Shown: positions 6,829-10,104 of the stretch, in pieces
How the letters are laid out: each line of letters opens with the position of its first letter
How positions within the stretch are numbered: the stretch's first letter is position 1
Virus record (IMG/VR): IMGVR_UViG_3300036852_000677
Coordinates: 1 to 48,092 of that record
Reading direction: 5' to 3' (one strand)
DNA length: 48,092 bases
Source: a virus
Program-made: the position numbers and the translations under genes
Notes under the pieces: generated by a model
What the model saw: the letters and a program-made list of their open reading frames with translations, nothing else
Told to the model about the DNA's origin: nothing
Database searches by the model: none

Positions 6829-7060
6829 CGGGCAGCCCCCATTCCCTGCTGGCTTGTTCGATCAGTTCGACGGTCGGCATCCGCCCCGCCGCTTCGAGCT
6901 CGTCGTAGACCATCGAGATGATCTCGCCGTAGTTGGTGATCCCCCGCTCCTGGGCCTTGCGGTACGCGGCCTCCTTCAGGGGGTAGCACTTCGTGCACGC
7001 CCAGGAATGAGAATCGTTCTCCTGGTAGCACCAGAAGCACCGGGCGACCTGCTCCGGCAT
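6815..7060 (-). CDS. Cys-rich small protein, 81 aa
   Basis: ATG 7060 shares its A with the terL stop codon. CFWC at residues 8-11 and CTKC at 22-25 give a CxxC-CxxC metal site, followed by a helical GITNYGEIISMVYDELEAAG segment. Located between terL and the portal gene. Function unknown. Confidence 0.65.
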   Translation of the reverse strand: MPEQVARCFWCYQENDSHSWACTKCYPLKEAAYRKAQERGITNYGEIISMVYDELEAAGRMPTVELIEQASREWGLPDDVA

Positions 7061-9371
7061 CAGCCCCTCCTCATCCCGAGCCCCAGACCGCGGTGCGCGT
7101 AGCCGAGGGCCGGGTCGACCGCGACCTCGGCCGGCGGCGGCTGGTCGATCGCGTTCGCCAGGTAGCGGAACGCGTCGCAGTTGGACACGAGCACGCCGTT
7201 TGCGACGTACTCGTGAGCGTCGGCGACGGTGAGGTTAAAGACCCTTGCGCGTCCGGTGGCCCGCACGGCCAGCACACGCGGGGGAGCACCGCGCCGTAGG
7301 GAAGAAGCGCTCGACCGTGAACGAGCGGCCGCACTCCGAGCAGACGCGCTGCTCGCGATCCGCGCCCGACGCACGCCGTGCGGCGGCCTTGCAGGCGTTG
7401 GAACAGAAGCGGACACCGTAGGTGCGGCGCGACGCGAACCCCGCGCCGCACCGCTCGCAGGTGTGAGCGATCGGCTGGCGGTTCTCCCAGGAGCGCACGG
7501 CCAGGAGGCGATGCCATTCCCGACCCGCCTCGGAAGCGTGCCATGCAGCGGCGAGCGGGCGGATAGCCGCGGCGTGCTCGCGTAGAGCCTCGGTCTGCTC
7601 GGGGGTCCGCATCGCCGCATGCGCCGCACCGTGGCCGTTCGATGAGAGCGCGACCAAGTTGCCGGGGTCGTTGTTGAGGGAGTCGCCGTCCCGGTGGTGG
7701 ACCTCCCATCCGGCGGGGATGGGGCCGTTGTGGTCGATCCAGAGCTGCCGGTGGAGCGGTTCACGAACGCCGCGCTTCGTGCCGCGCGCCGGCTTGTAGT
7801 AGGCGCGGGAGCCGTGGTCGCGCGCGTTCGGGTAACGGATGTAGTACGTGCCGCCGTACCGGATGACCTCCGACACGACGCCGCTCGGCGAGACGAAACG
7901 CTCGGTGGTGAACACGCCTCAAGTTTATCACCGTATCGCAAAGCGCGCAATGCGGTATAGTCTGCACCGCGGACCCACACCGGATGGTCGCCGGTCCCGG
8001 TTAGGGTGCGGCCGTTCGACAGCTCGACGGTGTAGACCGAAGCGACGGCGGTCTGAGCAGCGGCGACCACAGGCCGCCAGCCCCGGCGGGTCCAGGCCAG
8101 CATCCCCGGCCGGACCCGCTCGATGGGCAGATCCCCCGATGCGGTCGTCACCCGCGTACCGGCCACGAAGCACAGATGGAACTTCTCCTTGTCCTTGATC
8201 TTCTCGGTCGGCTGGCCGGACTCGTCGACCTCGCGGCTGTAGGTGCCGAGCTCGTCGAGCGTGCGGGTGCAGGAGTCGAACACGAAGAGCCGCTGCGCCT
8301 TGAACAGCGCGATCACGCGGTCGATACCCGCCTCGACGTCGGCGACGACCGGCTCGCGCAGCGGCACGCCCTCGTGCTGCCAGTCCATCCGCTGCTGCGT
8401 CTCGGACTTCGAGCCGCCGAACCAGGTCAGCACGTTCAGGCCCTGGGCCTCCGCCTTGGCCGCGGCCGCGTGCTGCGCCGTCGTCTTACCGCCCTCCAGC
8501 GACTCGCGGTAGAGGTAGAAGACGTTCGCCTCCGGGTCGCGGGCCAGCCAGAGGCGCGCCGTGTTGACCGCGCCGAAGTCCACGCCGGCGTGCCGTGGCC
8601 ACTCCGGCGGGATGTCGAACGGGTGCACCTTGTGGCCGCCCTGCTCGCGGTACTCGTCGACGAAATCGCCGTAGATCGCCGCGGCGGGACGGCTGTAGAT
8701 CGCCCGATAGAACAGGTTGAACTTCCAGGCCGGCAGCGTGCGGCGGGCCCGCTCATACTCCTCGCGCGGGAAGGCCGGGTTCTCGATCGAGTCGAACTGG
8801 ATCACGGCGTGGTCCGGGTCGCCCGCACGCCAGCGGTCGTAGACCTGCTGCTTGAGCCAGCCGAGGTTGTACAGGGTCGTGCCGCCGAGCACGCGGCCCC
8901 GGTGGAGCGCGAGCCGCCGCAGGATCGCCTCCCAGGACGCGAGCCGGAAGTCGTCCTGGCCCACCTCGTCGAGCCAGGCGCCCTTAGCGGTCGCCGACTC
9001 GAGCGACTCGCTGTTGTGGGCCGAGCCGAAGATCACGCGCGTCGGCTCGTCGCGGAAAACGAAGACCCGGTCGGCGGCGTGCCAGCTCCCCAGCCGGAGC
9101 GTGTCCCGGAAGAAGCGAAGGAACTCGGGCAGCATCTTCAGCTTGAGCAGCGGGAACGTCGACGTCACGGCGAGGTAGTCGCCCGGGCCGCGGTCCCGGA
9201 TCTCACGCCAGAGCCACAAGGGACCCATCGACGTTTTGCGTTCAGTCAGCCACCCTGGGTTCCCGCGAGCATCCACACGAAGCGTCTCGTGCTCCGCAAT
9301 GCCCGCGCTTGCCCAGGGTGGGGCCGAACGATCAGCCGGCCGTCTGCTCCGACGGTCCACAGGTTCGCCAC
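7060..9371 (-). CDS. terL: Terminase large subunit, interrupted by an intein and an 11-nt insertion
   Basis: DNA-packaging ATPase/nuclease. The N-terminal piece (GTG 9371 to TGA 9246, 41 aa) ends VWMLAGTQGG; the rest resumes as KTSMGPLWLWREI at 9237, so 11 bases (9238-9248) split the Walker A motif AGTQGGKTS and put the halves in different frames. Downstream are a Walker B-like AKGAWLDEVGQDDF, GGTTLYNLGWLK, and the nuclease domain starting HAGVDFGAVNTARLWL. The nuclease end KEKFHL/CDAFRYLANAI is split by an intein at 7180-8172. A Shine-Dalgarno (GGAGAGGGG) precedes GTG 9371. Whether the gene is functional depends on whether the 11-nt insertion is real. Confidence 0.85.
7235..7915 (-). CDS. 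HNH homing endonuclease nested out of frame in the TerL intein, 226 aa
   Basis: Codes in the -1 frame relative to terL. HNH core: RQLWIDHNGPIPAGWEVHHR then DGDSLNNDPGNLVALSSNGH. The C-terminal half has zinc-finger-like pairs, CERCGAGFASRRTYGVRFC and VCSECGRSFTVERFF, probably DNA binding. It has its own promoter (TTGCGC-17-TAAACT) placed so that the GTG at 7915 would be leaderless. It ends about 55 nt before the C-terminal splice junction. It probably drives homing of the intein. Confidence 0.85.
   Translation of the reverse strand: MFTTERFVSPSGVVSEVIRYGGTYYIRYPNARDHGSRAYYKPARGTKRGVREPLHRQLWIDHNGPIPAGWEVHHRDGDSLNNDPGNLVALSSNGHGAAHAAMRTPEQTEALREHAAAIRPLAAAWHASEAGREWHRLLAVRSWENRQPIAHTCERCGAGFASRRTYGVRFCSNACKAAARRASGADREQRVCSECGRSFTVERFFPTARCSPACAGRAGHRTRKGL
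7922..7950 (-). promoter_or_regulatory. Promoter of the nested HNH gene
   Basis: Minus-strand TTGCGC, 17-nt spacer, TAAACT, then six bases and the GTG start. The stretch is AT-rich compared with its surroundings and lies inside the intein coding sequence. It suggests that the endonuclease is transcribed independently of terL. Confidence 0.55.
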
Positions 9372-9409
9372 GTCTCTCACCCCCTCTCCAAAAGGCACCG
9401 ATTCTTGTC

Positions 9410-9438
9410 TTGATAGAACGCTGCCGTTCGGGTACGAT
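9410..9438 (+). promoter_or_regulatory. Promoter of the free-standing HNH gene
   Basis: TTGATA, 17-nt spacer, TACGAT, then six bases and GTG 9445, predicting a leaderless message. Same geometry as the promoters of the intein HNH gene and the Cro-like gene. Confidence 0.6.
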
Positions 9439-9444
9439 GGCCCG

Positions 9445-10104
9445 GTGGCATCGAACCCCGCCGTGGTGTGTGCATGCGGCTGCGGGGTGACCTTCCCGCT
9501 CTACGACGGACGCGGGCGACCGCGCCGGTTCGCCGGAGCCGGGCACGTCAACCGCACACGGCCCGACCAGCGCCTGCTCGTGACGTGCGAAGCGTGCGGC
9601 GCGTCGATCAGGCGTCCGCGTTGGCATGCCCGGAAGGTCCTGCACCAGTTCTGCGATGGAGCCTGCGCGGGCCGCTGGGCGACCGAGCACGGCACCCGCC
9701 GGGGCACCGCCAACGGCCACTACAACACGATCACCGTGCCGTGCTCGGGATGCGAGGCGCCGGTCAGCAAAGCGGCGAGCCTGATCACCCGCCGCAACGG
9801 CCGCGTCTACTGCCCGGCCTGCATCCCGCTCATCCCCCGCCGGGGGAAGAAGGGCTTCTACGTCGGCTACCCGCCCGAGTTCAGTGCACCGCTGCGGGCG
9901 GCGATCCGCAAACGCGACGGCTACCAGTGCCGCCTCTGCGGCGTGCCCCAGCGCGAAGCCGGGACGCTGCACGTCCACCACATCGACTACGACGTTCGGC
10001 ACAACGCGCCGGCGAACCTGATCAGCTTGTGCCGGGTCTGCCACGGCAAGACGAACTTCGCCCTGCGCGAGTGGACCGCCCGCCTGCAAGCGCTGATGCA
10101 TTAG
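9445..10104 (+). CDS. HNH endonuclease between terS and terL, 219 aa
   Basis: Reads against the head operon from its own promoter. The N-terminal half has several Cys pairs (CACGCG, CEACG, CSGCEAPV, CPACIP), probably zinc fingers. The C-terminal HNH nuclease has RKRDGYQCRLCG, LHVHHIDYDVRHNAPANLI and CRVCHGKTNF. It separates terS from terL and ends 3 nt inside the terS stop region. Free-standing homing endonucleases beside terminase genes are common in phages; the likely target is a terminase gene lacking the insert. Confidence 0.9.
   Translation: MASNPAVVCACGCGVTFPLYDGRGRPRRFAGAGHVNRTRPDQRLLVTCEACGASIRRPRWHARKVLHQFCDGACAGRWATEHGTRRGTANGHYNTITVPCSGCEAPVSKAASLITRRNGRVYCPACIPLIPRRGKKGFYVGYPPEFSAPLRAAIRKRDGYQCRLCGVPQREAGTLHVHHIDYDVRHNAPANLISLCRVCHGKTNFALREWTARLQALMH

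Follow-up and report, generated by a model that had tools for sequence, protein, structure and literature searches.

How should a terminase gene be interpreted when it holds the complete ends of an intein in its own reading frame and, between those ends, an HNH endonuclease gene in another frame? Textbook homing inteins have their endonuclease within the same polypeptide. The question is raised by the terL gene of the virus record IMGVR_UViG_3300036852_000677, whose 48,092 bases constitute the window analyzed here. The original prediction for this locus, made from the sequence alone, was that a terL intein surrounds an HNH gene that is read in the -1 frame from its own promoter and GTG codon, while the host frame remains open throughout. 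An overprinted element, a mini-intein joined by a homing gene, and a relative of split inteins were all entertained, and the existence of relatives with an in-frame endonuclease was named as the result that would expose a sequence error.

The evidence described below makes it very probable that the element is a mobile intein in the TerL nuclease domain whose homing endonuclease is encoded by an overprinted gene, uncoupled from the splicing precursor. If the gene is indeed overprinted, the endonuclease is freed from that precursor, and its separate regulation becomes possible.

The terL intein

The terL gene (about 9398-7060, - strand; PHROG terminase large subunit) lies between genes for the terminase small subunit (10790-10101, - strand; PHROG 6299) and the portal protein (6828-5086, - strand). 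Signature residues, profiles, AlphaFold, and Foldseek together delimit an intein of 331 codons in the terL frame, from Cys1 to Asn331 (7180..8172, - strand). Upstream is the N-extein, which starts at KTSMG in the P-loop and ends in KFHL (8173..9234, - strand; PHROG terminase large subunit, 3.1e-17). Downstream, the C-extein begins CDAFRYLANAI and carries the DALRY-type motif of the nuclease domain (7060..7179, - strand; identified by PHROG and from the sequence). When spliced in silico, the extein matches the terminase large subunits of Paenibacillus phages. The insertion point falls immediately before the DALRY-type motif, both here and in most relatives, and thus fulfills the expectation that inteins occupy conserved sites.

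The intein reads CFVAGTRV...GDHPVW...LRYGDKL...VFNLTVADAHEYVANGVLVSN and then continues into CDAFRYLANAI, which bears out the earlier description of complete ends, from CFVAGT to LVSN (8172..7180, - strand; 331 aa) with Cys at the +1 position. The signature residues are all present, including Cys1, the block B sequence TGDH (TxxH), the terminal Asn331, and Cys+1. The penultimate residue is Ser and not His, a feature common to 25 of 98 loci. Across these loci the terminal Asn and a Cys, Ser, or Thr at +1 are universal (98/98 for each), and Cys1 is found in 94. A database search with the intein halves and the HNH protein had been proposed as a check, and it returned Hint_2, Intein_splicing, and TIGR01443 (the TIGR models of intein ends) for the former and HNH_3 for the latter.

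AlphaFold, supplied with 36 family members, confidently predicts a Hint (splicing) fold assembled from the two ends of the intein. Residues 1-90, which include TGDH and the LRYGDKL segment, form the N-terminal part (7903..8172, - strand; pLDDT about 97), and residues 298-331, VLAVRATGRARVFNLTVADAHEYVANGVLVSN, form the C-terminal part (7180..7281, - strand; TIGR01443 intein_Cterm, 5e-05; pLDDT about 96). The 207 overprinted residues between them (91-297; 7282..7902, - strand) are predicted to be a disordered linker, mostly with pLDDT <50. A Foldseek search with the intein model places the gp41-1 intein first (1.1e-05) and Mtu RecA second (2.2e-05), and a profile search of PDB sequences agrees that gp41-1 is the closest solved splicing domain. 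Positions 7000-9500 have no Rfam match, and a group I intron carrying the HNH gene was therefore rejected.

The terL gene of the window has an irregularity outside the intein. At about 9232-9250 (- strand), an 11-nt insertion with an in-frame stop (TGA) interrupts the Walker A/P-loop (GG^KTSMGPLW), such that AGTQGG is followed by the insertion and only then by KTSMGPLW. A relative, L008, is intact and reads through this point. The insertion could be an assembly error, the mark of a decayed gene, or a scar of imprecise repair; a near-identical contig for comparison was sought, and none was found. The affected Walker A motif is one into which other TerL inteins insert. Unless the insertion is an assembly error, the TerL precursor may be truncated in this contig. 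This limits what can be claimed for the individual phage, and leaves the family-level conclusion unaffected.

An endonuclease gene in the -1 frame

The HNH gene was also found as originally described, in the -1 frame and with a GTG start. It runs from GTG 7915 to TAA 7235 (7235..7915, - strand) and encodes 226 aa, as supported by Pfam, PHROG, and AlphaFold; its first base coincides with position 3 of a terL codon. The product comprises an HNH core and two C-terminal zinc fingers of the form CxxC...CxxxC, and matches Pfam HNH_3 (5.6e-14) and the HNH endonucleases of PHROG 15471 (5.5e-30). The catalytic and zinc residues are invariant or nearly so, with H and N invariant and C nearly invariant. 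AlphaFold folds this protein on its own with a mean pLDDT of 94. No structure was matched with confidence when the HNH model was used in a fold search, and I-HmuI (1u3e) matches the protein only weakly. An HNH motif combined with DNA-binding appendages is what an HNH_3, I-HmuI-like homing endonuclease should have, and both are present. That the enzyme cuts the empty site and copies itself is inferred, as there are no cleavage data.

The prediction that the HNH gene fills the middle of the intein holds in that the gene lies entirely inside it, but the gene is not confined to the linker. Over its final ~15 codons it runs into a structured strand in the C-terminal half of the intein, VLAVRATGRARVF, so that positions 7235..7281 (- strand) encode both this strand and the HNH tail together with the last part of the second zinc finger. 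Such an overlap between the HNH reading frame and the intein C-terminal model is seen at 152 of 154 related loci, with a median of 41 nt. A canonical large intein, in which the endonuclease shares the frame and the polypeptide, is thus not what is encoded in the window or in any of these loci. The suggestion of a composite between a mini-intein and a homing gene, on the other hand, fits both the fold prediction and the occurrence of free-standing HNH homologs beside terL.

Conservation of the overprint among relatives

We retrieved relatives of the HNH protein from viral contigs, from bacterial and archaeal genomes, and from named phages, along with relatives of the intein. At each locus, all three forward frames were scanned with profile models of the intein N-half, the intein C-half, and the HNH protein. 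Loci were classed as overprinted when both intein halves and the HNH gene lay within one open host reading frame, and only non-redundant viral or prophage loci were counted. This anatomy is present at 154 loci, and the HNH gene occupies the same -1 frame in every one (154/154). The overprint is conserved and long, at about 190-225 codons. Some of the loci lie in genomes or bins labeled Bacteroidota, Actinomycetota, Pseudomonadota, Myxococcota, Nitrospirota, Acidobacteriota, Bacillota, and archaea. The same offset is found in two isolates whose genomes are finished, Tetrasphaera phage TJE1 and Acinetobacter phage Highwayman. Their terL genes are annotated as plain terminases, which means that overprinted HNH genes are being missed in annotation.

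The refutation that had been proposed therefore failed, with none of 154 relatives carrying the endonuclease in frame. A second search for in-frame relatives, made with an intein-based query, likewise recovered none, and all 70 new loci again used the -1 frame. That query contains the overprinted linker and is biased toward overprinted loci.

These relatives also bear on the possibility that frameshift errors in sequencing or assembly have displaced an ordinary in-frame HNH intein. The window is a single metagenome contig and its P-loop has an odd 11-nt insertion, both of which would be compatible with error. However, the same offset recurs in all 154 loci and in the finished genomes of TJE1 and Highwayman, and each case would require two compensating errors at matching places. 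Moreover, a separate start codon serves the HNH frame, which is closed by a stop two codons upstream, and the end of the gene overlaps conserved intein sequence in another frame. We give this explanation practically no credence, and rejected it because relatives with the same anatomy exist.

Selection on both reading frames

Confirmation that the host frame is open through the HNH gene is by itself of little value in the window, where 42% of synonymous shuffles leave the terL frame open as well (P 0.42). The stretch is 72% GC, and in such sequence an open alternative frame is often expected. Chance openness consequently cannot be rejected for the window alone, but it can be across the family. 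Over the HNH core of the 154 loci, synonymous shuffling predicts 227.1 host-frame stops, and none is present. Treated as independent, the loci give a log10 P of about -148. Because they are related, this product overstates the significance, but free-standing and split members of the same family serve as controls and show no depletion. Among 23 free-standing HNH genes, 105 alternative-frame stops were counted where 105.3 were expected, and 12 split loci have 61 where 58.6 were expected. It should also be noted that the one-ORF class is defined by openness; yet nearly all loci with both halves in a matching frame prove to be open.

The start of the gene carries a related signature. An A directly after the start codon would give ATGA or GTGA and so create a TGA in the host frame, and this base is absent from that position in all 146 overprinted genes assessed (0/146), as compared with 12 of 34 free-standing or split ones. 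Comparative sequence data of this kind indicate that the host frame is under strong selection for translation through the HNH gene. The absence of host-frame stops across the family implies that both frames are translated and the overprint is genuine, as the original prediction had allowed, and the pair meets the definition of overlapping genes in which both frames are selected for translation.

The two frames are nevertheless not constrained in the same manner. In five pairs of close relatives, 523 substitutions fall at HNH codon positions 1, 2, and 3 in the numbers 139, 112, and 272. Their concentration at third positions identifies the HNH frame as the constrained protein. Identity ranges from 0.65 to 0.97 for the HNH protein and from 0.48 to 0.93 for the host-frame linker, the latter being close to that of the unused third frame, and the HNH protein is the more conserved of the two in 5/5 pairs. 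To judge from these comparisons, the linker seems to be required to stay open without needing any particular sequence.

A further possibility is that the intein is dead, that its open frame is a relic, and that only the HNH gene still functions. The lack of functional data and the disrupted P-loop of the window terL leave room for this idea. A relic frame would collect stops, however, and almost every locus has kept the splicing residues. In addition, TerL is essential, and a phage with an unspliced 331-aa insert by the nuclease motif would not be expected to survive. A dead intein is accordingly improbable.

Expression of the endonuclease

A gene that is nested in this way needs a means of expression. 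The HNH frame is closed a short distance upstream, by a stop whose median distance from the start is 6 codons and whose distance is 5 codons or fewer in 48 of 97 loci, so the use of its own start is most likely. To look for accompanying signals, the sigma-70 -10 hexamer was scored at each distance from the HNH start against a null that preserves the host protein and its codon use. In 49 of 146 loci, a -10 element scoring 5 bits or more is placed exactly 6 nt ahead of the start; the null gives 13.4 +/- 2.5 loci, and other spacings give 0-9. The codons of the intein segment LRYGDxL supply this element, which occurs in about a third of loci, including the window. Of 31 cases, 15 have the TG that marks an extended -10 (null 5.4). 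A -35 signal 16-17 nt upstream is weak, and in the leaderless class only slightly exceeds the synonymous null. With the hexamer at -12 to -7, transcription would begin at the start codon itself, and a leaderless message is predicted.

Nearly another third of the loci (43; null 20.0 +/- 3.1) have a Shine-Dalgarno sequence instead. The -10 class, the Shine-Dalgarno class, and the class with both number 56, 43, and 0, making the two signals mutually exclusive. The remaining 47 of 146 loci have neither a -10 at the 6-nt spacing nor a Shine-Dalgarno sequence, and how they express the gene is unexplained.

The window falls into the leaderless-like class, TGaTAAACTtgaggcGTG. Its extended -10 like element, TGaTAAACT (7922..7930, - strand), stands exactly 6 nt before the GTG and predicts a leaderless start, and a possible but weak -35, TTGCGC, is seen in the sequence after a 17-nt spacer (7945..7950, - strand). 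The claim that the HNH gene has its own promoter is only partly supported, and that support is drawn from relatives. Within the window alone the -10 match is marginal, as a fraction of 0.043 of synonymous controls are as good, and a consensus promoter scan of the window found no match. Leaderless transcription of the gene is an inference, made in the absence of transcription data.

Programmed -1 ribosomal frameshifting offers another route to the enzyme, in which translation of the terL precursor would yield a fusion of TerL, the intein N-half, and HNH. The offset is always -1, the classical direction. This regularity can be explained without frameshifting, because the third frame is full of stops (1987 in the 154 loci compared with 2157 expected, or about 13 per gene) and only the -1 frame is usable. 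The short distance to the upstream stop leaves almost no overlap in which slippage could occur, slippery heptamers resembling X_XXY_YYZ are found in only 10 of 97 loci, and start codons are enriched for a -10 element or a Shine-Dalgarno sequence. The stop distances and heptamer counts in particular disfavor frameshifting, which we consider quite unlikely.

Proposed mechanism

An overprinted homing intein would operate as follows. Ribosomes would translate the terL mRNA straight through the N-extein, the Hint N-half, a linker of ~207 residues, the Hint C-half, and the C-extein, the disordered linker being merely a shifted reading of the HNH gene. The Hint halves would fold together around the linker and splice, freeing mature TerL. 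Splicing of the TerL precursor is inferred from the conserved residues and predicted fold, and there are no splicing data. Production of the HNH enzyme would be a separate process that uses the -1 frame. For the window phage and roughly one in three of its relatives, this would proceed through a leaderless mRNA from an internal sigma-70-like promoter within the LRYGDxL codons, and at other loci through translation from a Shine-Dalgarno sequence. As an independent enzyme, the HNH protein could then cut an intein-less terL near the DALRY codons, after which repair would copy the whole unit of intein and HNH gene. Homing, like cutting, remains an inference.

Comparison with known elements

Among published elements, the closest is the ShiLan domain, an insertion in phage methylases in which the HNH is out of frame, no splicing domain is detectable, and the inserted stretch is thought to remain part of the methylase (PMC11855218). 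ShiLan and the terL element share an HNH gene in another frame of an open host gene, a GTG start without a Shine-Dalgarno sequence, a proposed leaderless initiation, and a patchy spread. They differ in that a full Hint intein surrounds the HNH gene in terL and none is described for ShiLan, for which the parts of the report that were consulted mention no internal promoter. The terL element thus has the alternative-frame HNH gene in an open host gene that characterizes ShiLan, but not the other expected features, namely the absence of a splicing domain, a homologous HNH, and the same offset. In the ShiLan counterpart Applejack gp54/gp55 (PMC12613952), the HNH start falls at codon position 2, a different offset. 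Applejack gp55 scores only 5.4 bits against the terL HNH profile, from a scrap of zinc finger. Membership in ShiLan was rejected because the HNH proteins are not homologous by profile, the offset differs, and no intein is found there.

The TerL inteins of mycobacteriophages are mobile, have been shown to splice, and in two cases have been shown to cut (PMC5050341). These inteins reside in the ATPase domain, unlike the window intein in the nuclease domain, and the two tested for cutting have an in-frame LAGLIDADG endonuclease, whereas the terL element has an out-of-frame HNH (PMC5050341). The ShiLan report (PMC11855218) also cites a preprint (Gosselin et al. 2025) on actinobacteriophage inteins of "non-canonical architecture" in connection with overlapping frames, and that work may cover inteins whose endonuclease is unusually arranged and may overlap with ours.

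We incline, though only modestly, to the view that the terL elements constitute a previously undescribed and widespread class of mobile intein. Its members would carry an overprinted HNH gene with an intein-encoded, often leaderless promoter, would divide splicing and homing between two proteins from the same DNA, and would have an HNH in common with free-standing and split forms, between which they may be a bridge.

Split and free-standing relatives

Homologous HNH proteins with two zinc fingers are encoded by free-standing genes beside terminase/terL or portal genes in other phages, among them Pseudomonas phages PAE1 and FBPa53, Sphaerotilus phage SN1, Exiguobacterium phage EauM-23, Acinetobacter phage BP10, and Salmonella phage PhiSTP1. 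These differ from the overprinted genes in lying outside an intein and in having an alternative frame that is closed at the expected stop rate.

Other members of the family lie between the halves of split inteins, as in Lactobacillus phage CL2 (L049) and in metagenomic loci (the split relatives include L015, L021, L023, L024, L049, L120, L126, L143, L148, and L150). In some cases, such as L021, the second terL half begins in overlap with the HNH stop. Dassa et al. are said to have described, in 2009, split inteins in fractured genes that have a free-standing endonuclease between the halves and are of the gp41-1 type. Fractured-gene inteins resemble the terL element in that the endonuclease has its own gene and the closest splicing domain is gp41-1, but the terL element is continuous and its endonuclease gene overlaps the intein.

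The window could accordingly be suspected of holding a functional split intein, with TerL joined from two proteins and the HNH gene lying between their genes. The presence of the same HNH family between split halves in CL2 and about ten other loci lends this some plausibility, as does the similarity to gp41-1, itself a split intein from a fractured gene. Yet the host gene is not interrupted and its halves are not separately translated in the window, where the frame lacks any stop, as it does in 154 contiguous loci against the expectation without selection. Split relatives, by comparison, contain about as many stops as expected, and their frames vary. A split intein is thus very unlikely in the window, and the earlier suggestion of kinship with split inteins stands only insofar as split relatives with the same HNH do exist.

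With the continuous, overprinted intein retained as the preferred reading, an order of origin can be put forward by inference. A free terminase-associated HNH gene would have joined a gp41-1-like mini-intein in terL, giving a continuous element where the -1 frame could stay open and a fractured gene elsewhere. In the HNH tree, overprinted, split, and free states are clustered (19 changes in all, compared with a shuffled mean of 32.2), although deep support is weak. A single origin of the overprint receives no clear support from this tree, in which the overprinted label needs 16 changes and is clustered without forming one clade, with few well-supported deep branches. The series of free-standing, overprinted, and split forms makes the origin of split inteins testable.

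Additional loci and genes

Several individual loci depart from the common pattern. Two terL genes (L039 and L157) apparently contain two inteins, of which only the second has an overprinted HNH gene. At L151 (3454-4290), an out-of-frame HNH lies in an open frame that ends in the TerL-like sequence DCFRYAL, with no recognized intein half; it may represent an insertion of the ShiLan kind or an intein that has decayed. In L077 and L135, frameshifts break the intein N-half and leave the HNH gene intact, and these are apparent decay states or contig errors. Lactobacillus phage CL2 has a second split-TerL half at 2487-2771, comprising an intein C-half and MDATRYFVMQ..., that is unannotated in GenBank. 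Finally, the window holds a second, free-standing HNH gene between the terminase small subunit gene and terL, on the opposite strand (about 9446-10104, + strand), whose product contains zinc ribbons and the sequence ...GTLHVHHIDYD...ANLISLCRVCHGKTN.
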